Assembly (NCBI RefSeq): GCF_003550065.1
Contig: NZ_QXDC01000003.1
Coordinates: 682,001 to 746,000 of the forward strand
Direction of reading: 5' to 3'
Origin: Hephaestia caeni
GTDB taxonomy: Bacteria; Pseudomonadota; Alphaproteobacteria; Sphingomonadales; Sphingomonadaceae
Length of the DNA stretch: 64,000 nt
Shown here: positions 1,008 to 14,818 of the stretch, piece by piece
Layout: each line of letters begins with the position of its first letter
How positions within the stretch are numbered: position 1 is the stretch's first letter
Made by a program: the position numbers and the translations under genes
Notes under the pieces: model-generated
Database searches by the model: none
Told to the model about the DNA's origin: nothing
The model's input: only the letters and a program-made list of their open reading frames with translations

Positions 1008-2294
1008 TTACTCGGAGGTCGGATTTGCCCAATCCGGCAGTGCATCCAGATAGGCAAGCTCCTCCCGCAACACCGGGTCGAGGGCTTCCGGCAACAGCTT
1101 TCGTAACAGAATCCATTCAGGGGATTCGTTCGTGGCCTGTATCGCGTCTCGATAGCGGCGGAGGTGATCGTGAACGGATGCCTTGATTATGCTGCTGCTT
1201 CGCGTGTTCTCGATAATCTGCTTCAGTAGGTCCGAGTAGGGCGAAAGAACTTTGGTGCTCAGATAGGTATTGAGCATCGCAGAAATGTTTGAATGTTCAC
1301 TCGCATAATTTCGCCCCTTCCCGTTCGTGGCGGCAACGATCGAGAAGGCAGCCGCGAGAAGCAGACTTTGCGGACGCGCCAGATCGCGAAGGGGTTTGTA
1401 GCGATCCTCCCATTGAGCAAGCGCGTTGAACCAAGGCCGACGCACTTTTTCGATCTCTGCTAGTCGCGAGCCAACGATTCTGTCTTCGTGATAGGGAATC
1501 TTTGAGCGCGGAACCGTAAGCGCGTCGAACCGAACCAGCTTGGGCGCGTCCAGTCGTCCATCGGGCTTGCGAAGGTAACAGGACAGCACAAGGGTTTTCT
1601 GCTCCCGCGATGCGGCTACCGCTGCTTGATCGAGAACGAAGGCGTTGCCGCGGTGACGGCGGATAACATCGATGAAGCTCTGCGGAAGCGCGGTGGCGGT
1701 ATCAAGCCCGAACAGAATCCATAGCAGAGGTATGCCTTCACGTTCGTAGTGCTTGCAGCGCGCCGAGATTTCCGTCTGGAACGTGCCGGACATCTGGAAC
1801 TCAACGACGAACGGGCCGAAGTCGTCCCACTCGACATAGGTATCGGGATAGCGACCATGCTCATTCTCAGTTGGGGAACGATACTGGCCGACGGTATGCT
1901 TGATGTAACGAGAATCGAGTGCGGCAAGCTCTCCCACCAACTCGCACATCAGACGATGAAAGTTTGATTCCTGCTTCCCCTGATATTGTGCGGCCCGAGC
2001 GGCATCGGGTTTGATATTCCGTCCCTGAAACCAGGGGCAGTCCGGATCGCTCCCGTTATAATGCTGAAACAGAGGGCGAGCGATGCCGCGCGTCTTGGAC
2101 GTGCGGATATACACTTCGCATTCACACGCTAGGCATCGGGCGACGAGACCGTCTTTTCCGTTGCGACGATCCGTAATCTGATCGCGGATCAAGCCCCAGC
2201 TATCGTCCGACATCGCCATCAGATCTTGCGCCGTCACCGGACCGATCCGTTCGATGATAGCTGCTTCGACAATCCGTTGTAGTTTCCGCCCCAT
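1008..2294 (-). CDS. CoiA/DUF6035-like putative nuclease (ICE cargo)
   Basis: This is a 428-residue protein on the strand opposite the relaxase and convergent with it. Residues 54-86 contain Cys54, Cys57, Cys59, His78 and Cys86, which look like a small zinc-binding site. They are followed by a possible PD-(D/E)xK core with Pro150-Asp151 and Glu165-Phe-Gln167. CoiA-like and DUF6035 proteins have this plan of an N-terminal zinc site followed by a nuclease-like fold. The C-terminal half is helical and shows no motif I recognise. Its position between relaxase and coupling-protein genes, next to toxin-antitoxin genes, suggests cargo such as defence or DNA processing. The nuclease role is inferred from motifs only. 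Confidence 0.55.
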   Translation of the reverse strand: MGRKLQRIVEAAIIERIGPVTAQDLMAMSDDSWGLIRDQITDRRNGKDGLVARCLACECEVYIRTSKTRGIARPLFQHYNGSDPDCPWFQGRNIKPDAARAAQYQGKQESNFHRLMCELVGELAALDSRYIKHTVGQYRSPTENEHGRYPDTYVEWDDFGPFVVEFQMSGTFQTEISARCKHYEREGIPLLWILFGLDTATALPQSFIDVIRRHRGNAFVLDQAAVAASREQKTLVLSCYLRKPDGRLDAPKLVRFDALTVPRSKIPYHEDRIVGSRLAEIEKVRRPWFNALAQWEDRYKPLRDLARPQSLLLAAAFSIVAATNGKGRNYASEHSNISAMLNTYLSTKVLSPYSDLLKQIIENTRSSSIIKASVHDHLRRYRDAIQATNESPEWILLRKLLPEALDPVLREELAYLDALPDWANPTSE

Positions 2295-2418
2295 GAGCCG
2301 ACTGTATCCTCGATTGGGAACGGATCAAGAACCTTGCTCCCCGAGGCACGCTGGCCAGGCATTGCCAGGTAATGAGAGTGTATATATCTTGTCAGTATGA
2401 ACTTGAATGGAGTCGTCC

Positions 2419-2712
2419 ATGTCCAAGGATGCCGTTTTCACGATGAAACTGGAACCCGATTTGCGGGATGCGTTCATGGCCGAAGCCGAGGCTACCCATC
2501 GCCCGGCCTCCCAGATCGTGCGGGATTTCATGCGCGAATATGTCCAGCGACAGCGCGAAGCGCGGGATTATGACGAGTTCCTGCGCCGAAAGGTCGAAGC
2601 TGCCCGTGTGTCGGTTCGTGCTGGTCGTGGCCGCCCAAACGAGGACGTCGAAGCCGACTTTGCGGCCCGTCGGGCAGAATTGCGCCGCAGGGCCGATGAG
2701 GCAGAGGCGTGA
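2419..2712 (+). CDS. ParD/RHH-type antitoxin
   Basis: This small protein of about 97 residues has a ribbon-helix-helix N-terminus (VFTMKLEPDLRDAF, then ASQIVRDFMREY) and a charged, Arg/Glu-rich C-terminal tail, as in antitoxins that bind a RelE/ParE toxin and repress their own promoter. The ATG at 2419 is preferred over the in-frame ATG at 2407 because a GGAG lies just before it. It overlaps the toxin gene by 4 bases (GTGA), so the two are translationally coupled. A possible promoter lies upstream, with TTGCCA at 2362 and an AT-rich TATATAT at 2381. It probably stabilises the element. Confidence 0.8.
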   Translation: MSKDAVFTMKLEPDLRDAFMAEAEATHRPASQIVRDFMREYVQRQREARDYDEFLRRKVEAARVSVRAGRGRPNEDVEADFAARRAELRRRADEAEA

Positions 2713-3002
2713 GCGTCAAGTGGACGCCGGAAGCTGAACAGGACCGTATCGAGATCATCGCATACATCGCTGGCGATAATCCGCGTGCTGCGTTGCGGAT
2801 GGATGAACTTTTCGGAGATGCGGCGGCGCGTCTGGCCGATTTTCCACACATGGGCCGGACAGGCAAGATCGCGGGAACGCGCGAGTTGATTCCCCATGAG
2901 AATTATCGGCTGGTGTATCAGATCGAAGATGGGACGGTCTGGATTCTCACGCTGGTCCACACGTCGAGGCAATGGCCGCCATTGGTTTCGGAGGAAGGAT
3001 GA
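2709..3002 (+). CDS. RelE/ParE family toxin
   Basis: This 97-residue protein starts with GTG at 2709, inside the antitoxin stop. It has the ParE pattern: WTPEAEQDRIEIIAYIA at the N-terminus, a DFPHMGR segment, ELIPHENYRLVYQI, and a terminal strand ending LVHTSRQWPP. Members of the family inhibit gyrase (ParE) or cleave mRNA (RelE); sequence alone does not decide which. It is the partner of the preceding ribbon-helix-helix antitoxin. The next gene starts inside its stop region, so all three may be co-transcribed. Confidence 0.85.
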   Translation: MSVKWTPEAEQDRIEIIAYIAGDNPRAALRMDELFGDAAARLADFPHMGRTGKIAGTRELIPHENYRLVYQIEDGTVWILTLVHTSRQWPPLVSEEG

Positions 3003-3688
3003 ACGACAGGACAGACATGGTCGAGCGGGAGCATTGCAACAAATGCTTGCAATGGAACAACCATGCGATCGTTCATACGGAAAAGACTTCGTGGCAGGAA
3101 GAGTTGGACGATCAGCGGGGTATCTATATCGAGGGTGGAGACAGTTGGGCGCTGATGCGCTGTCTCGGTTGCGATTCCGTCAGGCTACGCCATAGGCACT
3201 GGTTCTCCGAAGACTCGGACGAACACGGGCAGCCGGCGATTTACACCGAGTTCTTTCCGCCGTCGATCACGCGCCAGAAACCGCAATGGCGCCGCCAAGC
3301 CTTCCCGTTCAATGCCTATCTTCAATCCTATAACGGCCTTTGCGACGAGATATATGGGGCCATGGCGATAGGGGCGCACCGGCTCGCCACGATGGGAATC
3401 AGGGCGCTGGTGGAGCGCTTGATGATCGACCAAGTGGGAGATCAGGGAAGGTTCGAGAAGAACATCGAAAAGTTCTTCGACGCAGGACACGTCGCCCCCA
3501 ACCAGCAGGCCATGTTCAAGGATACGCTGATCGAAGCTGGCCATGCCGCCATGCACCGGGATTTCGAACCTAGCGCTGATACGGTGAACACTCTGCTCGA
3601 TACAGTCGAGGGTATCCTTCACGCTATTTACTACGCGCCGATGTTGGCGGACAAAGTGCGAAAAACTATCCCGCCACGCGTTCGCTGA
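2999..3688 (+). CDS. DUF4145 domain protein
   Basis: The start is the ATG at 2999, which overlaps the toxin stop and follows a GAGGAAGG ribosome site; an upstream in-frame ATG at 2972 lacks this. The product has 229 residues. Its N-terminus holds two CxxC pairs (CNKC and CLGC), probably a zinc ribbon. The C-terminal half matches the DUF4145 pattern: helices around YNGLCDEIYGAMAIGAHRLATMGIRALVERLM and a late DAGHVAP and AAMHRDFEPS. DUF4145 proteins occur in defence islands and beside restriction genes, but their activity is not established. Translational overlap with the ParDE pair suggests a three-gene unit. Confidence 0.7.
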   Translation: MNDRTDMVEREHCNKCLQWNNHAIVHTEKTSWQEELDDQRGIYIEGGDSWALMRCLGCDSVRLRHRHWFSEDSDEHGQPAIYTEFFPPSITRQKPQWRRQAFPFNAYLQSYNGLCDEIYGAMAIGAHRLATMGIRALVERLMIDQVGDQGRFEKNIEKFFDAGHVAPNQQAMFKDTLIEAGHAAMHRDFEPSADTVNTLLDTVEGILHAIYYAPMLADKVRKTIPPRVR

Positions 3689-3712
3689 CTGTGAGCATAT
3701 GATGTTGCCTCT

Positions 3713-4324
3713 CTACGACAGGCTTTCCAAATAAGGCCGCATGACATTGTGCATCCGGCAGATGGCGCCATAGCGCCGAAGGTCGGCACGGGTTACCTTC
3801 CGCTGGCGCAGCCCGTCGCGCAGGGCTTCAATCGCTACATCGAGGCCGACCCGGCTGCGATATTTGAAACAATCGACAATGGTTTTGGCGGGGTCGTAGA
3901 TCGATACAGCAACCCCTTCGATTTCAACCGTCATGCGCCCGGCCGTGAAGGCGTCGCCTGATGCACGCACCGCCTCGACACGGAAAGGCAGCGTGCGCGG
4001 AATCCGCGCCTTGTGGTGGAAGCAAATCCATACCGCATGGGGAAGCTGCGAGGTCAGCCCATGATATTGCAGGGCGGACAGGAGCACGATGACACCATGC
4101 GGTGCGAGCCGTGCGGCTTCGGCGAGGCTATGGGCTGCGTCGATGTCATCAGCATCGGCGAGTTGATACAGTCCTCGCGCAAGCCGCACGAGTTGTCCCT
4201 GCTCGCAAAGCCGCGCGATGATTGCCGGGGGTATGCCTGCCTCGCGAAAGTCCCGCGCGCGCGCGATCCCACGCCAACGCGCAAAGGCAATGGCCTGATC
4301 CGATAGGGTTCCAGCGAGTTCCAT
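3713..4324 (-). CDS. AbiEi-type antitoxin / transcriptional regulator, apparently orphan
   Basis: The protein resembles COG5340, the predicted regulator related to the AbiEi antitoxin of type IV AbiE systems. It has an N-terminal winged helix (RARDFREAGIPPAIIARLCEQGQL, then LARGLYQLAD), a central VLLSALQYHGLTSQLP block and the typical YDPAKTIVDCFKYR segment near the C-terminus. The ATG at 4324 (203 residues) is preferred over one at 4372, because the upstream one lies inside a near-palindromic operator. The AbiEii nucleotidyltransferase toxin normally follows directly, but here the next gene downstream is a convergent DUF4145 gene. No partner is visible in the window. Confidence 0.75.
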   Translation of the reverse strand: MELAGTLSDQAIAFARWRGIARARDFREAGIPPAIIARLCEQGQLVRLARGLYQLADADDIDAAHSLAEAARLAPHGVIVLLSALQYHGLTSQLPHAVWICFHHKARIPRTLPFRVEAVRASGDAFTAGRMTVEIEGVAVSIYDPAKTIVDCFKYRSRVGLDVAIEALRDGLRQRKVTRADLRRYGAICRMHNVMRPYLESLS

Positions 4325-4341
4325 ATAGCTTGATGTTATCA

Positions 4342-4373
4342 AATGTCGGTATTTGTCAATAAGTGCCGACATT
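4342..4373. promoter_or_regulatory. Near-palindromic operator upstream of the AbiEi-type gene
   Basis: The two arms AATGTCGG and CCGACATT begin and end this 32-bp near-palindrome, with further partial symmetry inside. On the minus strand it contains TTGACA (4359 to 4354), a good -35 element. A weak -10 (TAACAT, 4338 to 4333) follows after 15 bp. AbiEi proteins are known to bind inverted repeats and repress their own promoter, so this is probably the autoregulatory site. Confidence 0.6.
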
Positions 4374-4513
4374 TTGAATGGATCATGCAGAGCGATGGAG
4401 CCTGTCCGGTAGCAACGCGCCTTCCCCAGCAGTCCAAGCGCTTTGCCGCTCTTGTTACCTTGGCGGCATCCGGCCCGCCTGCTAAGCAGTCAACCGCGCT
4501 GCGAAGTGGCAGC

Positions 4514-4644
4514 GCCGGGCTTCACAACCCGACGAAACGAAAACGTCTCGGAAACTTCGGTTTCCGGGGTGCCGTCGTATATGTCCAAGTCCTCGGACTA
4601 AAAACGGCGGCGCATGTCGTTTCGTCATGTTGTGAAGCCCCGGC
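4514..4644. ncRNA. Candidate structured RNA or DNA element in the ICE cargo region
   Basis: Two arms of about 27 nt (4514-4540 and 4617-4644) are complementary apart from two mismatches and one bulge. The enclosed 76 nt form two further hairpins. The first is CGGAAAC-TTCG-GTTTCCG at 4549-4566, a classic UUCG tetraloop. The second has the stem GCCGTCGT/ACGGCGGC at 4571-4578 and 4604-4611, with an inner GTCC/GGAC pairing. Together they make a three-way junction. No coding frame here looks real. It could be a small RNA, a mobile palindromic repeat or an oriT-like element; I do not recognise a known family. Confidence 0.5.
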
Positions 4645-4646
4645 GG

Positions 4647-4669
4647 CTCCCGCGTCCAGTGCGCGGGAG
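4647..4669. terminator. Strong 8-bp hairpin, possible terminator or end of the structured element
   Basis: CTCCCGCG at 4647-4654 and CGCGGGAG at 4662-4669 pair perfectly around a 7-nt loop. No U-run follows on either strand, so a rho-independent terminator is not certain. It directly follows the larger structured element and may be part of it. Confidence 0.35.
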
Positions 4670-4693
4670 TTCGGTGCTGATGACAGTATAGAT

Positions 4694-4736
4694 CGTCCCG
4701 ACTGAACCTATCGACTGCAACTATTCGATCGGGACG
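4694..4736 (+). promoter_or_regulatory. Inverted repeat overlapping the ribosome-binding region of the next gene
   Basis: CGTCCCGA (4694-4701) and TCGGGACG (4729-4736) form an 8-bp stem with a 27-nt loop. The 3' arm contains the only Shine-Dalgarno-like GGGA before the GTG start at 4741, so folding would hide the ribosome site. It could equally be a protein-binding operator. Confidence 0.4.
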
Positions 4737-4740
4737 CGCT

Positions 4741-5172
4741 GTGAACGAGCAATCGGATTTTTCGAACGATATTTACGACCCTATCGCCATGATGGCGCGT
4801 GTCGGGCATCTTCCGGTTCAGGCGCAGCAGGAAATTGAGCAAATCAGCCGGATTGTCCGCGCCGCTTTTGGCTATGGAGAGGGCGGAATGCCCGAACAAG
4901 GCCGGATCGTCCTTATCGCATTGACCAACCCGTATGCCATCTGCCCATCCAGCGGTGACATCGCAGGCTATGATTTTCATATTACGGTCAACCTGTCGGA
5001 ATGTGTTGATGACGCGCATTGGTGCCTCGTGCGCCGATTGATTGCCGCCGAAATCCCGCATCGCACGGTCACGCTGACCGTGACCGTAGAGGACTGCCCG
5101 TCCGGTATCGTCCTCTATGATGCGGAGGCAGATTTGCCGCTTAACATGCGGGAGCTGTCTGTGCGACCTTAG
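4741..5172 (+). CDS. Hypothetical protein, 143 residues (ICE)
   Basis: The frame opens with GTG directly after the inverted repeat and lies on the same strand as traG, 143 bp downstream. The protein is soluble, with no signal peptide or membrane segment. An acidic N-terminus is followed by a helical part (ARVGHLPVQAQQEIEQISRIV), a central strand pattern (GRIVLIALTNPYAICPSSGD) and a C-terminal strand-rich part (RTVTLTVTVEDCPSGIVLYD). I do not recognise the family. Its position just before the transfer operon suggests an ICE accessory or regulatory role, but that is only contextual. Confidence 0.55.
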   Translation: MNEQSDFSNDIYDPIAMMARVGHLPVQAQQEIEQISRIVRAAFGYGEGGMPEQGRIVLIALTNPYAICPSSGDIAGYDFHITVNLSECVDDAHWCLVRRLIAAEIPHRTVTLTVTVEDCPSGIVLYDAEADLPLNMRELSVRP

Positions 5173-5315
5173 CCTTCACTTCCCTGCTCCCAAGACAGCG
5201 GGGACGCCCAAGGACATTCCGGGACCACTGGGGGTATCACGCTGCCTTCCTGACCTGACGCAGCTTGAGTTCCGTTCGCGCCGCACTCCGCGGCCGGCGA
5301 GTCGGAACCAGGAAC

Positions 5316-7421
5316 ATGACCCCCACAAAGCTGCTTCTCGGACAGATTTTCGTTGTCTTCGCTATCGTCATCCTCGGCCTTTGGGCAGCGACCCAATGGG
5401 CCGCATCAATGCTCGGCTATCAGGCGCAGCTTGGCGCGCCGTGGGCTACCCCGTTCGGCGTGCCGGTCTATCGGCCGTGGCAGCTTTTCGGCTGGTGGTA
5501 TCATTATGATGCCTATGCCCCGCAAGTCTTCGACAAGGCGGGGATGCTGGCGGGCGCGAGCGGATTCCTCGGCTGCGCTTCCGCCATTATCGGCTCGCTC
5601 TGGCGCGCCAGGCAGAACCGGAACGTCACCACCTATGGTTCCTCCCGCTGGGCGGAACGCGGCGAGATCGCGAAGGCCGGGCTGTTCGACAATGCCGGCG
5701 TGTTTCTTGGCCGCTATCGCGGTAATTATCTGCGCCATGACGGTCCCGAGCATGTCATGGCCTTCGCGCCGACCCGTTCGGGTAAGGGCGTCGGCCTCGT
5801 CGTGCCGTCGCTATTGTCCTGGACCGGCAGCGTGGTGGTCCATGACATCAAAGGGGAGAACTGGACCCTGACTGCCGGCTGGCGGTCGCGCTTTTCGCAT
5901 TGCCTGCTGTTCAACCCGACCGATCCCCGTTCGGCGCGTTACAATCCGCTGCTGGAGGTCCGCAAAGGGCCGGATGAGGTCCGCGACGTTCAGAACATCG
6001 CGGATATTCTTGTTGACCCCGAAGGCGCGCTGGAACGCCGCTCGCATTGGGAAAAGACTTCGCACTCGCTGCTAGTCGGCGCGATCCTGCACGTCCTCTA
6101 TGCGGAGGAAGAAAAGACCCTCGCGCGCGTCGCGACCTTCCTCTCCGATCCGCAGCGGTCGTTCGCCCACACGCTGCGGCGGATGATGGCGACCAACCAT
6201 CTCGGCACCAAGGAGCATCCGCAGGTCCACCCCGTCGTCGCATCGGCCGCGCGCGAGGTGTTGAACAAGAGCGAGAACGAACGCAGCGGCGTCTTGTCGA
6301 CCGCCATGTCGTTTCTTGGCCTCTATCGCGACCCGATTATCGCGCGGAACACGGCGGCGTGCGACTGGCGCATCGCCGATCTTGTCGACGCCAAATCGCC
6401 GGTGTCGCTCTATCTGGTCATTCCGCCCAGCGACATTTCCCGCACGAAACCGCTGGTTCGTCTGGTGCTGAACCAGATCGGCCGCCGGCTTACCGAACGG
6501 CTCGAAGGCGACCCCAAAAAGAGCCGCAAGCATCAACTGCTGATGATGCTGGACGAGTTTCCGGCGCTGGGACGGCTCGACTTCTTTGAGACCGCGCTCG
6601 CCTTCATGGCCGGCTACGGCATCCGCGCCTATCTGATCGCGCAATCCCTCAACCAGATCAGCAAAGCCTATGGCGAGAACAATGCCATATTGGACAATTG
6701 CCACGTCCGCATCGCGTTTTCGTCCAACGACGAGCGCACTGCCAAGCGGATCAGCGACGCGCTCGGCACCGCGACGGAATTGCGTGCCCAGCGCAACTAT
6801 GCCGGCCATCGCCTCGCGCCCTGGCTCAGCCATGTCATGGTGTCGCGGCAGGAGACCGCCCGTCCGCTGCTGACGCCCGGCGAGGTGATGCAGCTTCCGC
6901 CTGCCGACGAACTTGTGCTGGTATCCGGCCTGCCACCGATCCGGGCGAAGAAGCTTCGCTATTATCAGGACCGCAATTTCACATCGCGGGTGCTGCCGCC
7001 GCCCGATCTTGATGGCGGCGGCAGTGGGGGAGCCGGCAGCGGCGATGGGAATGATGGTGGGAATGGCGGCGTCGGCGGTGCGGCATATCACGACCGGCCC
7101 GCTCCGCGCCCCGATGACTGGGGTGGTGAGGTGCGCGGCCTCCATGACGGGTTGATCCCCGCCGCCGAGGACGAAGGCGCCGCGCTCGATGAAGATTCCG
7201 AAGGCGGCTTGCAGCAGCAGCGGCATCCCGGCCTCGAAGAACAGGCGGAGACGCCGTCCGAGCGCGAACCAGAGCTGACGCCGGGAGATGACGATGATGG
7301 CGATCCCGTCGCCGACCAACGCGCAATGACCGGCCTTGGCACTGTCGCTCGTGCCGTCGCCATCAATGAAGGGAAGTCGCGCGGCGACGATCTTCTCCCC
7401 GGCTTCGACGGGGACGAATGA
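5316..7421 (+). CDS. traG: Type IV coupling protein TraG/VirD4
   Basis: This 701-residue hexameric ATPase links the relaxosome to the mating channel at the inner membrane. Two N-terminal membrane segments (about residues 8-28 and 76-94) precede the NTPase domain, with Walker A APTRSGKGVG at 151-160 and Walker B LLMMLDEFP near 407. The ATG at 5316 follows an AGGA and starts the expected membrane segment; an earlier in-frame start at 5265 would add residues without similarity. The last 130 residues are unusual, a Gly-rich run followed by an acidic, disordered tail, possibly a substrate-recognition region. The stop overlaps the next gene by 4 bases. This is the first gene of the transfer operon. 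Confidence 0.95.
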   Translation: MTPTKLLLGQIFVVFAIVILGLWAATQWAASMLGYQAQLGAPWATPFGVPVYRPWQLFGWWYHYDAYAPQVFDKAGMLAGASGFLGCASAIIGSLWRARQNRNVTTYGSSRWAERGEIAKAGLFDNAGVFLGRYRGNYLRHDGPEHVMAFAPTRSGKGVGLVVPSLLSWTGSVVVHDIKGENWTLTAGWRSRFSHCLLFNPTDPRSARYNPLLEVRKGPDEVRDVQNIADILVDPEGALERRSHWEKTSHSLLVGAILHVLYAEEEKTLARVATFLSDPQRSFAHTLRRMMATNHLGTKEHPQVHPVVASAAREVLNKSENERSGVLSTAMSFLGLYRDPIIARNTAACDWRIADLVDAKSPVSLYLVIPPSDISRTKPLVRLVLNQIGRRLTERLEGDPKKSRKHQLLMMLDEFPALGRLDFFETALAFMAGYGIRAYLIAQSLNQISKAYGENNAILDNCHVRIAFSSNDERTAKRISDALGTATELRAQRNYAGHRLAPWLSHVMVSRQETARPLLTPGEVMQLPPADELVLVSGLPPIRAKKLRYYQDRNFTSRVLPPPDLDGGGSGGAGSGDGNDGGNGGVGGAAYHDRPAPRPDDWGGEVRGLHDGLIPAAEDEGAALDEDSEGGLQQQRHPGLEEQAETPSEREPELTPGDDDDGDPVADQRAMTGLGTVARAVAINEGKSRGDDLLPGFDGDE

Positions 7422-7831
7422 TGCGGAACCGAGACAAGGTGCGTTATCAGCTTTTCCTCGAACCGCGCCTCGCGGAGCGGCTGGAGGAGATCGCCGCCAA
7501 GCCCGGCGTGGCGCGCTCCGACATATTGGTGGCTGCTCTCGATGCCTGGCTGACCCGGCAAGGCAGTCACGAACTGGACGATCGCTTTGGCGGCCGGCTC
7601 GACCGGATGAGCCTTCAGATCGGCCGCGTCGGGCGTGACGTTCAGGTGCTTCTGGAAAGCCTCTCGCTTTTCATCCACCAGCAATATTGCCTCAATGCCC
7701 AGCTTCCCGAACCCGATGCCGCTGCCCGCGCCATCGGCCGGGACCGCTTCGACCGCTTCATCGCGCAAGTCGGCCGCCAGATGGCGACCGGTGCGAAACC
7801 ACTCGCACCTGCAAGCGAGGCGGCACGGTGA
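7418..7831 (+). CDS. CopG/RHH-type regulator between traG and trbB
   Basis: The 137-residue protein starts at the ATG that overlaps the traG stop. Its N-terminus is a ribbon-helix-helix: VRYQLFLEPRLAERLEEIA, then ARSDILVAALDAWL. A helical region of about 80 residues follows. A CopG-like gene at this position is characteristic of Tn4371-like transfer operons. It probably represses or tunes the operon, or helps the relaxosome, but its target is not shown by the sequence. It overlaps trbB by 4 bases. Confidence 0.8.
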   Translation: MMRNRDKVRYQLFLEPRLAERLEEIAAKPGVARSDILVAALDAWLTRQGSHELDDRFGGRLDRMSLQIGRVGRDVQVLLESLSLFIHQQYCLNAQLPEPDAAARAIGRDRFDRFIAQVGRQMATGAKPLAPASEAAR

Positions 7832-8805
7832 CTGCTTCCGCCAATATGACGGCGCAGGGCCGCCGCCGCGCCATGCTCCGCACGGCGATGGGGCCGGCGA
7901 TTTCCGCGGCGCTCGGCGATCCTCGTGTGATCGAGATCATGGTCAACCCCGATGGCACGCTCCGGCTCGACCTGCTCGGCGAAGGCCGCGTGGATACCGA
8001 ACTGCGGGTCGAGCCTGCCGAAGCCGAACGCATCATTCGCTTGGTCGCCTCGCATATTCGGGCGGAGGTTCATGCCGGCGCGCCGATCGTCAGCGCCGAG
8101 CTGCCTGAAGGTGGCGAACGCTTCGAGGGGCTGTTGCCTCCGGTCTCGGCCGCGCCCTGCTTCTCGATCCGCAAGCCCGCCGCCCGCATCCATCGGCTGA
8201 TGGACTATGTTGCCGACGGCATCATGCGCGCAGAGGTCGCGCTGGCGCTGTCGATGGCCGTGGTCGAGCGCAAGAATATCCTGGTTGCCGGCGGCACCTC
8301 ATCGGGTAAGACGACGCTGGCGAATGCGCTTCTCAACGAAATGGCGACGCTCGACGAGCGGGTCATCATCATCGAAGACACGCGCGAACTGCAATGTGCC
8401 GCGCCCGATACCGTGGCGCTGCGCACCAAGGCCGGCACCGTGTCGATGGCCGATCTGGTGCGCTCGACGCTGCGCTTGCGCCCGGACCGGATCATCGTCG
8501 GCGAAGTCCGGGGCGGCGAAGCCCTCGACATGCTCAAGGCGTGGAATACCGGCCACCCCGGCGGCATCGCCACCGTCCACGCCAATAGCGCTCGCTCCGC
8601 GCTCTACCGGATCGAGCAGCTTGTCGCCGAGAGCGTCATCACCGTTCCGCGCCGCCTGATCGCTGACGCGATCGACCTTGTGGTGTTCATCTCCGGCCGG
8701 GGCACCGGCCGCAGAATCGAGACCGTTACCGAGGTCAGCGGTCTCGACGCCGACGGCGATTACGCCGTCACCGACCTTGCCATCCCCCATTGCTCTGGAG
8801 ATTGA
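7828..8805 (+). CDS. trbB: Conjugal transfer ATPase TrbB (VirB11 family)
   Basis: TrbB is the hexameric cytoplasmic ATPase that powers pilus assembly and substrate transfer. The GTG at 7828 (325 residues) is chosen because it overlaps the preceding stop and gives the usual family length. An N-terminal domain with LGDPRVIEIMVNPDGTLRLD is followed by Walker A GGTSSGKTT near residue 155. The acidic Asp box (VIIIEDTRELQC), Walker B-like RPDRIIVGEVRGGEALDML and His box (GHPGGIATVHANS) follow. All catalytic blocks are present. It is in the middle of a tightly packed operon; trbC starts one base after its stop. Confidence 0.95.
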   Translation: MTASANMTAQGRRRAMLRTAMGPAISAALGDPRVIEIMVNPDGTLRLDLLGEGRVDTELRVEPAEAERIIRLVASHIRAEVHAGAPIVSAELPEGGERFEGLLPPVSAAPCFSIRKPAARIHRLMDYVADGIMRAEVALALSMAVVERKNILVAGGTSSGKTTLANALLNEMATLDERVIIIEDTRELQCAAPDTVALRTKAGTVSMADLVRSTLRLRPDRIIVGEVRGGEALDMLKAWNTGHPGGIATVHANSARSALYRIEQLVAESVITVPRRLIADAIDLVVFISGRGTGRRIETVTEVSGLDADGDYAVTDLAIPHCSGD

Positions 8806-8806
8806 A

Positions 8807-9142
8807 ATGCATATCACACCTCTGCCCGCATTCGCGCGCCTGCCGCACCGGCTTACGCTTGCCGCGAGTGCCGTCCTCATCCTCCCCGCCGCCGCGATGG
8901 CGGCCGGATCGGGAATGCCCTGGGAAGAACCGCTTCAGCAAGTGCTGGAATCGGTCCAGGGTCCGGTCGCCAAGATCGTCGCCGTTATCATAATCATCAC
9001 CACCGGGCTGGCACTGGCCTTCGGCGAAACCAGCGGCGGCTTTCGCAAGCTGATCCAGATCGTATTTGGCCTGTCGATCGCCTTCGCCGCCAGTTCCTTC
9101 TTCTTGTCCTTCTTCAGTTTCGGCGGCGGGGCGCTGGTCTGA
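8807..9142 (+). CDS. trbC: TrbC pilin (VirB2 family)
   Basis: This 111-residue protein starts at the ATG at 8807 with GGAG just upstream. A long signal peptide (residues about 1-37, ending AAMAAG) is followed by two hydrophobic helices separated by a short polar loop (GETSGGFRKLIQ), the VirB2/TrbC prepilin plan. The mature subunit probably polymerises into the conjugative pilus after processing; TrbC of RP4 is cyclised. The trbD start overlaps its stop by one base. Confidence 0.9.
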   Translation: MHITPLPAFARLPHRLTLAASAVLILPAAAMAAGSGMPWEEPLQQVLESVQGPVAKIVAVIIIITTGLALAFGETSGGFRKLIQIVFGLSIAFAASSFFLSFFSFGGGALV

Positions 9143-9429
9143 TGGTGGTGGCCGCTTCCATCGCGCCCGCCACCTCCATCGAGGGCTTCGAGGTGCCGCT
9201 GCATCGCGCACTTACCGAACCGATCCTGCTCGGTGGTGCTCCCCGAGGGATCGCGATCCTCAACGGCACACTGGCGGCCGCGATGGGACTTGGCCTCCAG
9301 CAATGGATCGGGGGCCTGCTGCTCTGGCTGGTCGGGCACAGCCTCGCCGTCTTCGCGGCCAAGCGCGACCCCGATTTTGCGCCCGTCCTTGCCCGCCACC
9401 TCCGGCAAAAGGCGTATCTCTCATGCTGA
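9142..9429 (+). CDS. trbD: TrbD (VirB3 family)
   Basis: This 95-residue inner-membrane protein has the family pattern EVPLHRALTEPILLGGAPR, then a hydrophobic stretch at about residues 40-65 that can hold two membrane helices. The end is a basic DPDFAPVLARHL motif typical of TrbD/VirB3. It helps assemble the pilus with TrbC and TrbE. It overlaps both neighbours. Confidence 0.92.
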   Translation: MVVAASIAPATSIEGFEVPLHRALTEPILLGGAPRGIAILNGTLAAAMGLGLQQWIGGLLLWLVGHSLAVFAAKRDPDFAPVLARHLRQKAYLSC

Positions 9430-11891
9430 ACCTGAAGGAATATCGTGGACTATCCGACCGACTGGCCGATCATTTGCCGTGGGCTGCGTTGGTGGCGCCT
9501 GGCGTGGTGCTCAACAAGGATGGGAGCTTCCAGCGGACGTTCCGTTTTCGCGGTCCCGATCTGGAATCCGCTACCGAAGCCGAACTGGTCTCGGTCTGCG
9601 CGCGGGCGAACAACGCGCTGCGCCGGCTGGGGTCGGGCTGGGCCTTGTTCTTCGACGCCGAGCGCGCGCCCGCATTGGGTTATCCCGACAGCCAGTTTCC
9701 TGATGCGGCCTCCTGGCTGGTCGACGAGGAACGGCGTGGACATTTTGACGGCCGCAAGGGCGAGCATTTCGAGAGCCGCTATCACCTGACCCTCTGCTAC
9801 CTGCCGCCCGCCGATCAGATCAGCCGGGCCGAACGGGCATTGCTGGAGCGCGAGCAGCCGCAACAGGATCGCGACTGGCGCACCGAACTGCGCGCCTTCA
9901 TCGCCGAGAGTGATCGGCTATCCGACCTCCTGACCGGCATCATGCCGGAGGTTCGCGCGCTGGACGACAGCGAGACGCTGACCTTCCTGCACGGCTGCAT
10001 TTCACCCAAAAGGCATCCCGTCGCGGCCCCTGAGACGCCGATGTATCTCGACGGGCTGCTGGTCGATACGCCGCTGTCCGGCGGCATCGAGCCGATGCTG
10101 GGGAACGGACACCTTCGCACGGTGACGGTGCTGGGATTTCCGAACGTAACTCGACCCGGCATCCTCGACGCACTCAATCGTCAGGGGTTCGCTTATCGCT
10201 GGGCGACACGCTTCATTGCGCTCGACAAGACGCAGGCCAACAAGGCGCTGACCCGCATCCGGCGGCAATGGTTCAATAAACGCAAGTCGATCGCGCAGAT
10301 CATGCGCGAGGTAATGATGAACGAGCCGGTGCCGCTGACCGACAGCGATGCCGATAATAAGGTGGTCGATGCCGATCTCGCCTTGCAGGCGCTGGGCGGC
10401 GATCATGTCGCGTTCGGTTATTACACGGCGACGATCACCGTGTCCGATGAGGATAGCGCGGCGGCTGACGAAAAGCTCCGCATCGTCGAGCGGATCGTCA
10501 ATGGCATCGGTTTCACCTGCATCCGGGAAACGGTGAACGCCGTGGAAGCCTGGCTCGGCAGTCTGCCCGGCCACGTTTATGCGAATGTCCGCCAACCGCT
10601 GGTCCACACGCTGAACCTCGCGCATCTGATGCCGCTGTCGTCAGTATGGGCAGGGCCGTCGCGCAACGATCATCTGGATGGGCCGCCGCTGCTCTATGCG
10701 GAGACCTGGGGTTCGACGCCGTTCCGCCTTTCCACCCATGTCGGCGACGTTGGCCATATGCTGGTTGTCGGCCCGACCGGAGCGGGCAAATCGGTGCTGC
10801 TGGCACTGCTCGCCTTGCAGTTCCGGCGCTATCCCGGCGCTCAGGTCTATATCTTCGACAAGGGGCTGTCTGCGCGCGCCACCGTGCTGGCGATGGGCGG
10901 CGAACATCATGCTCTGGGCGAGAGCGACGCACTGGCATTCCAGCCCTTGCGCAACATTCACGATGACGGCGAGCGGGCATGGGCGGCCGACTGGATCGCG
11001 GCCTTGCTCGCCCATGAGCGGGTCGATGTGACGCCGGAGGTCAAGGAAGCGCTTTGGTCGGCGCTCACCAGCCTTGCCAGCGCGCCGCCCGAACAGCGCA
11101 CGCTCACCGGCCTTGCGGTTCTACTCCAGTCCAACGCGCTCAAGGCCGCGCTCATGCCCTATACGCTCGAAGGGCCATTCGGGCGGCTGCTCGATGCGGC
11201 GGAAAACGCCCTGGACCTGTCGGATGTTCAGTGCTTCGAGACCGAAGCGCTGATGAACTCAGGCAGCGTCGTGCTGCCGGTGCTAACCTATTTGTTCCAC
11301 CGGCTCGAAGAACGCTTCGACGGGCGGCCGACGCTGCTCATTCTCGATGAAGCCTGGGTATTTCTCGACAATCCACTGTTCGCCCAGCGCATCCGCGAAT
11401 GGCTGAAGGTTCTGCGCAAGAAGAATGTCAGCGTCATCTTCGCCACGCAGAGCCTCGCGGACATTGCCGACAGCAGCATCGCGCCCGCGATCATCGAAAG
11501 CTGCCCGCAACGCATCCTGCTTCCCAATGACCGGGCGATCGAGCCGCAGGCCCGCACCACCTATGAGCGGTTCGGCCTCAACGACACGCAGATCGAACTG
11601 ATCGCCCGCGCCACGCCGAAGCGGCATTATTATCTGCAATCCCGGCGCGGCAATCGCCTGTTCGAGCTGACGCTGGGGCCGATCGCCGTGGCGCTGTGCG
11701 GCGCCTCCGATCCCGACACGCAAAGCCTGATCGATCGTCTGCTCGCGGAACAGGGCGAGGTCGGGTTCGCCGCTGCCTTTCTTGAAGCGCGCCGCCTCGG
11801 CTGGGCGGCCGGTCTTCTCCGAGACTTCCCCGGCGCGAACAGCGCCGGGGGAGACCCCTTCATCCCCCAGCAGAAGGAGCTACCCTCATGA
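9423..11891 (+). CDS. trbE: Conjugal transfer ATPase TrbE (VirB4 family)
   Basis: This 822-residue protein is the largest ATPase of the channel, needed for pilus biogenesis and DNA transfer. The ATG at 9423 gives the typical start MLNLKEYRGLSDRLADHLPW and overlaps trbD; the open frame upstream lacks similarity. The N-terminal CagE/TrbE domain spans about residues 1-420. Walker A GPTGAGKS lies near 450 and Walker B LLILDEAWVFLD near 638, followed by the VSVIFATQSLADIADS block. All expected motifs are intact. The stop overlaps trbJ by 4 bases. Confidence 0.95.
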   Translation: MLNLKEYRGLSDRLADHLPWAALVAPGVVLNKDGSFQRTFRFRGPDLESATEAELVSVCARANNALRRLGSGWALFFDAERAPALGYPDSQFPDAASWLVDEERRGHFDGRKGEHFESRYHLTLCYLPPADQISRAERALLEREQPQQDRDWRTELRAFIAESDRLSDLLTGIMPEVRALDDSETLTFLHGCISPKRHPVAAPETPMYLDGLLVDTPLSGGIEPMLGNGHLRTVTVLGFPNVTRPGILDALNRQGFAYRWATRFIALDKTQANKALTRIRRQWFNKRKSIAQIMREVMMNEPVPLTDSDADNKVVDADLALQALGGDHVAFGYYTATITVSDEDSAAADEKLRIVERIVNGIGFTCIRETVNAVEAWLGSLPGHVYANVRQPLVHTLNLAHLMPLSSVWAGPSRNDHLDGPPLLYAETWGSTPFRLSTHVGDVGHMLVVGPTGAGKSVLLALLALQFRRYPGAQVYIFDKGLSARATVLAMGGEHHALGESDALAFQPLRNIHDDGERAWAADWIAALLAHERVDVTPEVKEALWSALTSLASAPPEQRTLTGLAVLLQSNALKAALMPYTLEGPFGRLLDAAENALDLSDVQCFETEALMNSGSVVLPVLTYLFHRLEERFDGRPTLLILDEAWVFLDNPLFAQRIREWLKVLRKKNVSVIFATQSLADIADSSIAPAIIESCPQRILLPNDRAIEPQARTTYERFGLNDTQIELIARATPKRHYYLQSRRGNRLFELTLGPIAVALCGASDPDTQSLIDRLLAEQGEVGFAAAFLEARRLGWAAGLLRDFPGANSAGGDPFIPQQKELPS

Positions 11892-12619
11892 AAACCAATA
11901 TCCTTGCCGCGTGCTGTGCTGCGACCGCCATGATCGGCACCGCCATCGTGCCGACCGCACCCGCGCACGCGCAATTTGGCGGCGTGGTGTTCGATCCGTC
12001 GAACTACGCACAGAATGTCCTGACCGCGGCGCGCACCCTCCAGCAGATCAACAATCAGATCCGGGCGCTCCAGAACCAGGCGACGATGCTCACCAATATG
12101 GCGAAGCACCTCCAACGCCTCGACTTCTCATCGTTGGCGCAGATCACCCACTCAATGCAGCGCATCGACACGCTGATGATGCAGGCGGAGGGCATCGCGT
12201 TCGATCTCGGATCGACCGATAACGCGCTGCGGACACAATTTCCCGCCGACTTCGATCAAACGCTGTCGACCAGCGACATCATCGCCCAGGCGCGCGCGCG
12301 GTTGCAGGCGTCGATGAAAGCCTACCGGCAGACCATGCGCGTTCAGGCGCAGGTCGTGGAGAATGTCCAGGGCGACGCCGCACTGCTCTCGGAACTGGTA
12401 TCGCAAAGCCAATCAGCGACTGGCGACTTGCAGGCGCAACAGGCGACCAACCAGCTCATTGCGCTGTCCACCAAGCAGCAGCTCCAAATCCAGAACATGA
12501 TGGCGGCCCAGTATCGTGCCGATGCGATCGAGCGCGCCCGCCAGCAACAGGCGCTCGAAGCCGCGCGTGAGACCACGCGGCGCTTCATCGGCGAACGCGA
12601 CATCTACACGCGCAACTGA
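11888..12619 (+). CDS. trbJ: TrbJ (VirB5 family) periplasmic transfer protein
   Basis: The 243-residue protein starts at the ATG overlapping the trbE stop. A clear signal peptide of about 29 residues ends in PAHAQF. The mature protein is mostly helical and Gln-rich (ARTLQQINNQIRALQNQATML and similar), as expected for TrbJ/VirB5, a minor pilus component. RP4-type operons have the small entry-exclusion gene trbK after trbJ. Here only 27 bp separate trbJ and trbL, so trbK is absent. Confidence 0.92.
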   Translation: MKTNILAACCAATAMIGTAIVPTAPAHAQFGGVVFDPSNYAQNVLTAARTLQQINNQIRALQNQATMLTNMAKHLQRLDFSSLAQITHSMQRIDTLMMQAEGIAFDLGSTDNALRTQFPADFDQTLSTSDIIAQARARLQASMKAYRQTMRVQAQVVENVQGDAALLSELVSQSQSATGDLQAQQATNQLIALSTKQQLQIQNMMAAQYRADAIERARQQQALEAARETTRRFIGERDIYTRN

Positions 12620-12646
12620 CGGCGACCGGAAAGGCGGCACACGGCC

Positions 12647-13984
12647 ATGAACCCCGATCTCAACATCATCGACAACTTCCTGGCCGTCTTCACGACCTAC
12701 ATCGACAGCGGCTTTGGCCTCCTGTCCGGGGATGTCGCCTTTCTTACCACCGTCCTGATCGGCATCGACGTGACTCTGGCCGCGCTCTGGTGGGCGATGG
12801 ACAATGATTCTGACGTGCTTGGCCGCCTTATCAAGAAGACACTCTATGTCGGTGCCTTCGCCTTCATTATCGGCAATTTCAACACGCTTGCCGACATCAT
12901 CTTTCGCAGCTTTTCCGGGCTTGGCATCACCGCGTCGGGAGGCGGTATGTCGGCCGCCGACCTGCTCCGTCCGGGCGCGATCGGGGGCACGGGGTTCAAA
13001 GCAGCGTGGCCGCTTCTGGTTAAGGTCGGGACGCTTTCCGGCTTTCCCGAGTTCTTCGGCAACTTCCTCACCATCGCCGTTCTGCTCGTGTGCTGGTTTC
13101 TGGTGGTGCTGGCCTTCCTGGGCATGGCCGTGCAGGTCTTCATCACCATCATTGAGTTCAAGCTGACGACGCTCGCCGGGTTCGTGCTGGTGCCGTTCGC
13201 ACTGTGGAATAAGACCAGCTTCCTCGCCGAGCGGGTGCTGGGCGGTGTCATATCGTCAGGCATCAAGATCATGGTGCTGGCGGTCATTATCGGCATCGGC
13301 ACCAACTTCTTCGCGCAGCTCAACAGCCTGGTCGGAGCCGATCCCGGTATCGCGGAAGCCTTGAGCCTGTTGATGGGCGCGCTGACGCTGGTCGGCCTCG
13401 CCATCTTCGGTCCCTCAATTGCCTCCGGTCTCGTTACGGGCGCACCGCAACTCGGCGCGGGTGCGGCCGTCGGCACGGTGGCGGGCGCAGCGCTGGCCAC
13501 TGGCGGCGCGGCGATGCTCGGCACTCGCGCTGCGATGGCTGGCGCCTCTGGCGGCATGGCTGCGATCCGGGCCGGAACCGCGATGGGCTCCGCCGGCGCC
13601 ACCGCTTATCGGCTCGGGCAGGAAACTTCCGGCAGCAGCACGATGCGCGCCGGTATGGGTGGCATCGGCACCGCAATCGGTGGCGCGACATCGCAAGGAT
13701 TGAAGGCAGCGGCCGCGCGCGTCACGGCACCATTCAGGGACGCTGCCGGTCGCGGGCAGCAGGCTGCATGGCATGCCGGCCGCACGTCTTCGCCGTCTAG
13801 CGCATCGCCCGGCGCTTCGGTTGCGGGCGCGGCCGCCGGAGCAGCCGGTGGCGCTCCGGCCTGGGCGCGCAATCTGCGCTCCGAACAGGCTGCACGTCAT
13901 CGCCGCCACATGGCGATGCAGACGGTCAAGGACGGCGATCGTCCCGGTGGCTCGGCCAATCCCGACCTTAGCGACAAGGAGTGA
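12647..13984 (+). CDS. trbL: TrbL (VirB6 family) polytopic membrane protein
   Basis: This 445-residue protein forms part of the inner-membrane channel. Several hydrophobic segments lie between about residues 25 and 270, including VLLVCWFLVVLAFLGMAVQV and LAVIIGIGTNFF. The family block TLAGFVLVPFALWNKTSF is present. From about residue 270 on the sequence is a low-complexity, Ala/Gly-rich and then Ser/Pro/Arg-rich tail, as is common in TrbL. A GGAAAGG-like site precedes the ATG. Confidence 0.93.
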   Translation: MNPDLNIIDNFLAVFTTYIDSGFGLLSGDVAFLTTVLIGIDVTLAALWWAMDNDSDVLGRLIKKTLYVGAFAFIIGNFNTLADIIFRSFSGLGITASGGGMSAADLLRPGAIGGTGFKAAWPLLVKVGTLSGFPEFFGNFLTIAVLLVCWFLVVLAFLGMAVQVFITIIEFKLTTLAGFVLVPFALWNKTSFLAERVLGGVISSGIKIMVLAVIIGIGTNFFAQLNSLVGADPGIAEALSLLMGALTLVGLAIFGPSIASGLVTGAPQLGAGAAVGTVAGAALATGGAAMLGTRAAMAGASGGMAAIRAGTAMGSAGATAYRLGQETSGSSTMRAGMGGIGTAIGGATSQGLKAAAARVTAPFRDAAGRGQQAAWHAGRTSSPSSASPGASVAGAAAGAAGGAPAWARNLRSEQAARHRRHMAMQTVKDGDRPGGSANPDLSDKE

Positions 13985-13990
13985 TTTTTC

Positions 13991-14818
13991 ATGATCTTCA
14001 AGCGATCCATCCAGCGTTACGGGCGCACGCCCGAACCGGAAACCCCATATCAGCGTGCCGGCCAGCTCTGGGACGAGCGCATCGGCTCGGCGCGCGTGCA
14101 GGCGAAGAACTGGCGGCTCGTCGCCTTCGGATGTCTTGGTCTGACCGGCATCCTGATCGGCTCGAACGTCTGGCAATCGATGCAGAGCCGCGTCGCCCCC
14201 TACGTCGTTGAGGTGGATCGGCTCGGTGAAGCCCGCAGTGTAGCGCCGGCGATCCAGAACTATCAGCCCACCGACGGGCAGATCGCCTGGTTCCTGAGCC
14301 GGTTCATATCGAACGTGCGGTCGGTCTCCACCGACCCGGTATTGGTCAAGCGCAACTGGCTTGATGCATACGACTTCGCTACCGACCGCGCGGCGATTTT
14401 CCTCAACGAATATGCCCGTAGCAACGATCCGTTCGCGGGTATCGGCCAGCGCAGCGTATCGGTGCAGGTGACGAGTGTGGTCCGCGCCTCCGACACCAGC
14501 TTTCAGGTTAAGTGGACCGAAAGCATCTACGAGCGTGGCAGCTTGGCCAGAACCGAACGCTGGACCGCCATGCTGACGGTGAAGATGCAGCCGCCCAAAA
14601 CTGCCGATGCGCTCCGCAAGAATCCACTCGGCCTGTTCGTCAACGCTATCGACTGGGCACGGGAACTCGAAGGCCCGCCGGCGACGGCGGACCAGCAGCC
14701 TCCGCAGCAGCCCATCGTTCCGGCTCCAACAACGCCGACCGCAATGCCCGTGCAGGATAGCGCGCCGGTTCAGGCCGCGTCGGCCAGTCCCGCCAATGAA
14801 GGAGATTCCGCCCCATGA
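13991..14818 (+). CDS. trbF: TrbF (VirB8 family)
   Basis: This 275-residue bitopic inner-membrane protein has a cytoplasmic N-terminus ending in TPYQRAGQLWDERIGSARVQ, a membrane helix at about 42-60 (VAFGCLGLTGILIGSNVW), then a periplasmic NTF2-like VirB8 domain to about residue 220. The last 50 residues are Pro/Gln/Ala-rich and probably disordered. It nucleates the channel with TrbG and TrbI. The start follows an AGGAG six bases away, and the stop overlaps trbG by 4 bases. Confidence 0.93.
   Translation: MIFKRSIQRYGRTPEPETPYQRAGQLWDERIGSARVQAKNWRLVAFGCLGLTGILIGSNVWQSMQSRVAPYVVEVDRLGEARSVAPAIQNYQPTDGQIAWFLSRFISNVRSVSTDPVLVKRNWLDAYDFATDRAAIFLNEYARSNDPFAGIGQRSVSVQVTSVVRASDTSFQVKWTESIYERGSLARTERWTAMLTVKMQPPKTADALRKNPLGLFVNAIDWARELEGPPATADQQPPQQPIVPAPTTPTAMPVQDSAPVQAASASPANEGDSAP

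Follow-up and report, generated by a model that had tools for sequence, protein, structure and literature searches.

A structured RNA on a scaffold shared with sRNA-Xcc1 as a probable cis-acting leader in an ICE of Hephaestia caeni

Introduction

The closest described relative of the element considered here is sRNA-Xcc1 (Rfam RF02221), a small RNA that a 2011 paper reportedly terms trans-acting in its title. In Xanthomonas campestris it has been reported as a single band of about 100 nt, and its mapped ends are 88 nt apart (PMC2996969). It is also reported from integron cassettes, and in the Xanthomonas cassette that is most widespread it lies upstream of symE, as its companion (PMC12444791).

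Here, we analyze an element in a 64,000-nt stretch of Hephaestia caeni DNA (contig NZ_QXDC01000003.1, positions 682,001 to 746,000 of the forward strand), referred to as the window, in whose coordinates positions are given. A preliminary description, made from the letters alone, had singled out positions 4514-4644 as a three-way junction of RNA or DNA within an ICE, and had offered a regulatory RNA, a transfer-related site or a small mobile palindrome as explanations. Our analysis points to a cis-acting leader switch, placed here before a cargo gene (4741-5172), and we give this reading a probability of about 0.72. The window element is a genuine RNA, and a search of the open PMC literature gave no description of its type among the papers listed; an earlier description may exist, both of this type and of the extended sRNA-Xcc1 structure reported below.

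Results

Extent and fold of the element

The element occupies positions 4496-4673 of the forward (+) strand, as do all of its parts given below, and is longer than the stretch first singled out. Its most visible feature is an arm at 4514-4540 (GCCGGGCTTCACAACCCGACGAAACGA) that pairs with 4617-4644, interrupted by one extra C and one CC/AT mismatch pair; a repeat search recovered the inner part of the arm as a 24-nt inverted repeat with 92% complementarity. The stretch 4494-4664 folds at -103.1 kcal/mol, compared with a mean of -61.6 (sd 4.0) for dinucleotide shuffles (z -10.3), and none of 200 shuffles folded equally well. The initial impression that long complementary arms with nested hairpins are hard to obtain by chance was thus correct, and the arms, their mismatches and bulge, the UUCG hairpin and the second stem with its G-U pair can all be read directly from the sequence as described. 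The same account had the pattern free of any coding frame, which is nearly right: a mechanical 120-aa frame (4343-4705) does cross the element. We do not consider this frame coding, because relatives retain base pairs across insertions and deletions, unlike a coding frame. A three-way junction, formed by P3, P4 and P5, is indeed present in the fold, but the crossing helices had been overlooked, and the supposed arms are partly engaged with the further partners P2, P6 and P7.

Alignments place the parts in the 5' to 3' order H0, P2a, Sa, P2b, P3a, P4, P6a, P5, P7a, P3b, P7b, Sb, P6b. Aligned relatives and direct reading identify H0 as a 5' hairpin (GCGCTGC/GCAGCGC, 4496-4515), which takes the compensatory form GCGCCAC/GTGGCGC in one relative (L019). 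P2 is a hairpin (4516-4531) with a CGGG/CCCG stem, and its loop contains the strand Sa (4520-4527), whose partner Sb lies at 4630-4637. The 5' strand of P3 (P3a, 4531-4540) pairs with P3b (4617-4626). P4 is the hairpin CTCGGAAAC-UUCG-GTTTCCGGG (4547-4568), seen in the fold, by direct reading and through covariation in 14 relatives, and the 5' strand of P6 (P6a, CCGGGG, 4564-4569), which pairs with P6b (CCCCGG, 4638-4643), overlaps its base. The P5 arm (4569-4613), evident from the fold and by direct reading, has a stem with G-U pairs (4569-4578/4604-4613), an internal loop made of AUGUCCA (4581-4587) and UAAA (4599-4602), conserved in relatives, and an apical hairpin (4588-4599). P7 (4613-4629) is a hairpin with a CATG/CATG stem whose loop is P3b. 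P3b, Sb and P6b were each identified by the swapped-partner test described below and by direct reading.

Two more hairpins follow on the same strand. One, CTCCCGCG/CGCGGGAG (4647-4669), lacks a T-run and is kept in the plasmid/ICE subfamily. The other, CGTCCCGA/TCGGGACG (4694-4736), is read directly before the start codon of the next gene, whose ribosome site it could hide. A terminator scan of 4300-5330 found no terminator-like site with a T-run.

Compensatory changes and conserved unpaired bases

The preliminary description had proposed that compensatory substitutions in relatives would support a selected RNA, and such changes are abundant. In 14 close relatives, both bases have changed in 20 of 51 pairs, a count reached in none of 500 shuffles; the 3' hairpin was taken one column out of register here, so that helix's own figure is meaningless. 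A larger set was examined with a swapped-partner test, in which each strand is compared with its own partner and with the partners of other sequences under equal offset freedom. Of 102 model matches, one weak match was dropped and the remaining 101 were reduced to 98 sequences, which are less than 85% identical to one another, yet not independent by descent. All five helices stood out (P2, z 8.4; S, z 20.7; P3, z 22.1; P6, z 13.7; P7, z 14.2), each with 0 of 2000 permutations; the model used to collect the sequences includes S and P3, but not P2, P6 or P7. Helix S is complete in 91/98 sequences and P3 in 94/98, compared with 12% and 11%, respectively, when partners are swapped.

The resulting topology is reciprocal. 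P2 and P7 are hairpins, and the loop of each pairs with the strand just 3' of the other, while P6 crosses both long helices. In the window copy P6a overlaps the P4 base, and P3 shares single bases with P2 and with P7. P2, S, P3, P6 and P7 may either all coexist or represent alternative states.

The P5 loop is the conserved unpaired core. ATGTCCA occurs in 95/98 relatives and AAA[AG] in all 98; 27 of these sequences were picked by a pattern containing ATGTCCA, and the motif is present in 68 of the 71 others. A short reading frame starting at the conserved AUG was considered and rejected: the distance to AAA falls in all three phases (43, 38 and 13 of 94), and 30/98 frames stop after six codons while 41/98 stay open.

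A promoter-like motif and the position relative to genes

Alignment with plasmid relatives revealed a motif, TTGGCG ... TGCTAAG (4460-4486, + strand), that ends 9 nt 5' of H0. TTG[ACG] is found in 72, 77 and 77 of 98 relatives at -50 to -30, -45 to -25 and -40 to -20, and in only 16-23 of them in seven other intervals; TTG-N15-22-TA fits 48 of the 98 upstream regions, compared with a shuffled mean of 7.5. Since a generic sigma-70 scan did not list the 4460-4486 motif, we call it only promoter-like.

The element lies upstream of genes in a strand-specific manner. Among the matches listed, 80 loci were scored with a home-made gene caller: 68 of them have their nearest downstream gene on the same strand, 7 have it on the opposite strand and 5 have none called, whereas the upstream neighbor is on the same strand in 35, on the opposite strand in 37 and not called in 8. 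These loci come from at least 120 stretches in named genomes that match a degenerate pattern containing ATGTCCA; going by the genus names in their titles, all are presumably Sphingomonadales, except for one "uncultured bacterium". Independently of the home-made caller, a same-strand gene starts 47-67 nt past the RNA in 8 of 9 annotated plasmid loci, with L012 as the exception, L011 lacking annotation and several plasmids sharing their surroundings; the corresponding distance in the window is 68 nt. Two traits expected of a riboswitch are therefore present, a fold backed by compensatory changes (in the 14- and the 98-sequence tests) and a same-strand 5' leader position (68 of 75 scorable loci among the matches listed; 8/9 plasmid loci). 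A MITE or other small mobile palindrome, with terminal inverted repeats and target-site duplications, would be oriented independently of genes; orientation instead tracks the next gene and the copies carry the promoter-like motif, so that part of the earlier proposal finds little support.

At L223, two copies stand back to back (2473-2649, - strand; 2817-2999, + strand), each with an ORF on its own strand.

Distribution of relatives

Searched by blastn with the window element, 26 of 72,556 plasmid records match, all of them from sphingomonads and at 72-84% identity. Sequenced phage records gave no blastn match with either the window element or L320, and spread by sequenced phages was rejected on this ground. 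In IMG/VR, two narrow patterns matched 0 and 2 contigs; full copies precede a small lipoprotein-like gene on the IMG/VR contigs L316 and L317.

Covariance models extended the range. Model R1 (14 sequences) found the RNA at E<=1e-4 in 114 of 397 Sphingomonadaceae genomes, the window's own included. Model R2 (56 sequences) found it in 30 of 385 sampled Alphaproteobacteria genomes and in 14 of 349 genomes of the phylum, again with the own genome included in both counts; three of the latter hits are non-alphaproteobacterial. In the class to which these three belong, hereafter class two, 9/48 genomes match at E<=1e-3, and the motif ATGT(C/A/T)(C/A)A is present in all ten class-two matches reported. 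One class-two locus (L324) also bears a match to the Hammerhead type II ribozyme (2911-2975, - strand; 66.4 bits, cut-off 37), well apart from its copy of the RNA.

The window's own genome holds five strong copies (model R2, E<=6e-10) and two partial ones. Besides the window copy, the strong ones are G000:C1:901942, 530812, 608403 and 1119291 (loci L083-L086). Two of these precede proteins of about 180 aa; the other two precede 49-aa proteins, which on visual inspection look like the small proteins found behind plasmid copies. In the partial copies (L087, G000:C1:1394478; L088, G000:C2:840330), the P5 arm sits between long complementary P6-like strands, possibly representing a minimal variant or a decayed copy.

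Relation to sRNA-Xcc1

That the element was not recognized as a known family was a fair assessment. The Rfam covariance search suggested at the outset yielded no credible family for the window copy: Rfam 15 gave 0 gathering matches in the window, and the best sub-threshold match at the element was the MIR5274 miRNA model (E 0.002-0.004, 26/100 bits). A scan of the window copy and 19 relatives returned no Rfam family at E<=0.5, and RF02221 did not match window positions 4440-4760 at E<=10. The relation to sRNA-Xcc1 becomes visible only through relatives. RF02221 matches 6 of 20 relatives inside the element below its cut-off (L118, L328, L113, L322, L330, L109), the best at 37.2 bits with the Rfam cut-off at 53 bits, so by score the window type is not a member of that family. 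In these alignments the outer stem of RF02221 falls on P6, the second stem on P5 and the third on P7, and Sb is covered.

Of 150 genomes sampled from the phylum, 25 have an RF02221 match over the cut-off; of 14 control genomes, none has. Taking one locus per positive genome, we searched upstream of the Rfam model for a counterpart of the 5' half. A P2-type hairpin whose loop pairs at the Sb position was found in 19/25 loci (swapped mean 3.8, maximum 9 in 2000 permutations). The P7 loop has a longest complement of 6.9 nt on average, versus 2.6 nt when swapped (maximum 4.9). In the 19 loci with P2/S, a pairing of 6 nt or more between P3a and the P7 loop is present in 17, compared with 1.8 when swapped. 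Thus, the P6-P5-P7 scaffold with its 5' half (P2/S and P3) occurs in both types, and P2/S and P3 lie just upstream of the Rfam model. The P5 loop differs. Across the 25 RF02221 loci, ATGTCCA is found in none, ATACAA or AATAC in 20 and GGAA in 23; the AUACAA...GGAA loop of sRNA-Xcc1 is not present in the window type, which has AUGUCCA...AAA.

Since sRNA-Xcc1 members carry the same 5' half yet lack ATGTCCA, the window type and sRNA-Xcc1 are sister types on one scaffold with different P5 loops, and Rfam models only the 3' part of sRNA-Xcc1. A sub-threshold copy of the sRNA-Xcc1 type with its own P2/S candidate lies at G000:C3:275860-275973 (L337, 33.8 bits), so the window's genome holds both P5 loop types.

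Alternative partners in the two types

The sister type carries duplicates of its 5' strands near the ribosome site. A start codon with a ribosome site lies no more than 75 nt from the match in 20/25 RF02221 loci. Among the 19 loci with P2/S, to which the strand-copy figures are confined, Sa is repeated downstream over at least 6 nt in 13 (3.1 when swapped) and P3a in 12 (4.2 when swapped); for the Sa copies, the P3a copies and the P3a/P7-loop pairing, none of 5000 permutations reaches the respective mean. In L332, L346, L350, L351, L358 and others, these copies lie on either side of the ribosome site, giving the order Sa, GGAG, P3a, ATG. Two partner sets are thus available to Sb and P3b in RF02221 loci, and one of the sets covers the ribosome site. 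A crude test of word sharing over 80 nt in RF02221 loci gave 6.92 versus 6.15, equal to the permutation maximum.

Copies of the window type outside sphingomonads go part of the way towards such a choice, as far as terminators or duplicate Sa strands in some of them suggest. A hairpin with a T-run, counted without a shuffled control, follows in 12/32; ten of these 12 start 6-9 nt after Sb, and the hairpin ends 28-32 nt from the start codon in 4 of 6 measurable cases. The Sa 6-mer recurs downstream in 7/32 (swapped mean 1.0, maximum 6 in 1000). In class two it recurs in 6 of 8 scorable copies (swapped mean 1.5, maximum 6), a figure that equals the permutation maximum and includes three identical Sa strings. 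A looser pairing test outside sphingomonads gave a small excess for Sb (4.06 versus 3.88, sd 0.14) and a modest one for P6b (4.41 versus 3.96, sd 0.17); a longest-shared-word test of the whole 5' module gave none (4.47 versus 4.59). In L326, L330 and L331 of class two, and in L122 and L123, a second copy of the P2-loop sequence follows P6b within a stretch resembling a hairpin; in several class-two copies, CCGGAG/CTCCGG encloses it.

Among sphingomonads, including the window's subfamily, a hairpin with a T-run is rare (3/66), Sa is not repeated (1/66; 0.75 when swapped), and P6b and Sb show no excess of other partners. A switching partner of the window copy's own was looked for and not found.

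Downstream genes

The gene behind the window copy, ORF143, is an open reading frame of 143 aa (4741-5172, + strand) with no Pfam or PADLOC hit. It has matches in 12/249 genomes, its own included, and the RNA is absent from ten loci with ORF143 relatives, drawn from 13 non-identical matches.

Across the family, downstream ORFs could be scored for 135 of 155 elements and form 55 clusters, with some ORF picks uncertain. The largest comprises 42 ORFs, and both of its representatives that were scanned match sigma-70 regions; the next comprise 10 (small proteins) and 9 (SHOCT and DUF805 representatives). Pfam matched 31 families in 54 representatives, and the 25 families listed include GGDEF, DUF4268, ORF6N and Mrr_cat as well as phage integrase, CagX and TraM. 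PADLOC matched single downstream representatives to PDC-S11 (E 1.5e-96) and UzuA (E 6.9e-72).

ORFs that follow class-two copies have matches to P22_AR_N (E 8e-43 and 3e-46) and AntA (E 4e-26 and 3e-12); one of the five scanned matches nothing, and a fragment matches BRO-N (E 4e-18). The c4 RNA of phage antirepressor regions (RF01695) acts as an antisense RNA, and several class-two copies resemble it in preceding antirepressor-type genes. However, the class-two loci scanned (8/10) contain no c4 match at E<=0.5.

The ICE context

The RNA lies in a stretch of 13,851 nt (window 1876-15726; L278 150-14000) that is 100% identical in another genus (G240), which is a very recent transfer. Upstream stands an orphan AbiEi-type regulator (3713-4372, - strand; PF13338, E 1.2e-11). 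With the N-terminal 300 residues of traG as query, seven matches are found in the window's genome, which thus has several related conjugation systems in addition to the ICE in the window.

The RNA is absent from all 29 related traG loci, and in 28 of these the sequence extends 830 nt or more upstream, far enough for a copy to be seen. On this count, we rejected conserved control of the transfer operon. Most copies also lie elsewhere in genomes, and the transfer-related site put forward in the preliminary description is not supported. The RNA is missing from these 29 loci as well as from the ten loci with ORF143 relatives. Together with ORF143, it looks like cargo carried by this ICE lineage and not like a conserved regulator of transfer.

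Discussion

A cis-acting leader switch accounts best for the window element. The reading draws on sequence comparisons that show covariation-backed helices, an upstream motif, a strand-consistent position and, in RF02221, duplicate partners. Transcription would probably start at a promoter a few bases upstream of the RNA, which would then fold into a compact scaffold comprising the P2-loop/S and P7-loop/P3 pairings, the crossing P6 and a P5 arm with its AUGUCCA/AAA loop. The 3' strands P3b and Sb would choose between their 5' partners (P3a and Sa) and a second partner set downstream, and whatever stabilizes one of the two states, probably a factor bound at the P5 loop, would switch the next gene. 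We infer the switching itself, the role of the P5 loop as sensor and the control of ORF143 in this ICE. The element resembles riboswitches and orphan candidates in being a structured leader between a promoter-like motif and a same-strand gene, with a conserved unpaired core and with alternative partners in the sister type; it differs from them in that the downstream genes share no pathway and no switching partner was found in the window's subfamily. Points against a leader switch are the scarcity, in sphingomonads, of hairpins with a T-run and of Sa copies, the mixed test results outside sphingomonads, the discrete RNA published for sRNA-Xcc1 and the ten other loci in which ORF143 relatives lack the RNA.

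That very diversity of downstream genes (55 clusters), together with the promoter-proximal position and the hairpin with T-run that follows the RNA in part of the family, would suit a leader, such as an antiterminator, that responds to a protein or to RNA polymerase and not to a small molecule. We consider such a leader unlikely, though deserving of attention, as the duplicates at the ribosome site of the sister type point to a local pairing choice and not to a modified polymerase. A stand-alone small RNA, perhaps trans-acting, as published for sRNA-Xcc1, is improbable in our judgment. The single band with ends 88 nt apart and the wording of the 2011 title speak for it, as do the promoter-like motif that the window type has of its own and the 3' hairpin of the plasmid/ICE subfamily. 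A stable 88-nt RNA could also be a processed or prematurely ended leader, however, and against a stand-alone RNA count the lopsided orientation of the following gene (same strand in 68 and opposite in 7 among the matches listed), the 47-67 nt spacing on plasmids and, in RF02221 loci, both the nearby start codons with ribosome sites (20/25) and the Sa and P3a copies around those sites. The 28-32 nt from hairpin to start codon in 4/6 terminator cases also leave little room for a second promoter.

Crossing helices within a compact fold and unpaired bases that hardly vary could also belong to a self-cleaving or otherwise catalytic RNA, but no catalytic Rfam family matches at the element in the loci scanned, and we hold this to be very improbable. 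Hardly credible at all is a DNA element such as an integron attC, a transfer origin or a small mobile palindrome. It would fit a long inverted repeat inside an ICE, surroundings shared without a difference by another genus, and the occurrence of sRNA-Xcc1 in integron cassettes (PMC12444791). Against it stand the compensatory changes, the strand-specific place upstream of genes and the absence from the 29 related traG loci, and neither attC core pattern (R' GTTRRRY, R'' RYYYAAC) occurs on either strand of 4496-4673.

Beyond the leader switch in the window, a broader picture can be sketched tentatively, as something possible that we would at present sooner doubt than accept. A single widespread scaffold, a reciprocal loop/tail pseudoknot with interchangeable sensing loops (AUGUCCA/AAA here, AUACAA/GGAA in sRNA-Xcc1), may have been recruited by hosts and mobile elements before genes for ECF sigma factors, candidate phage defense, antirepressor-type proteins and conjugative cargo to sense signals perhaps tied to stress or infection, and sRNA-Xcc1 itself may be a cis switch at the ribosome site. 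The presence of two loop types on one scaffold suggests that the loop sets what is sensed.

The tie to sRNA-Xcc1 extends the model of that family by a whole 5' half and leads to the prediction that an RNA published as trans-acting works in cis. The putative partner genes span ECF sigma factors, candidate defense, antirepressor-type genes, and cargo of plasmids and the ICE. With copies in over 25% of the Sphingomonadaceae genomes sampled (114/397), although no Rfam model recognizes the one in the window, such a structured leader RNA would be a ready target for ligand discovery.
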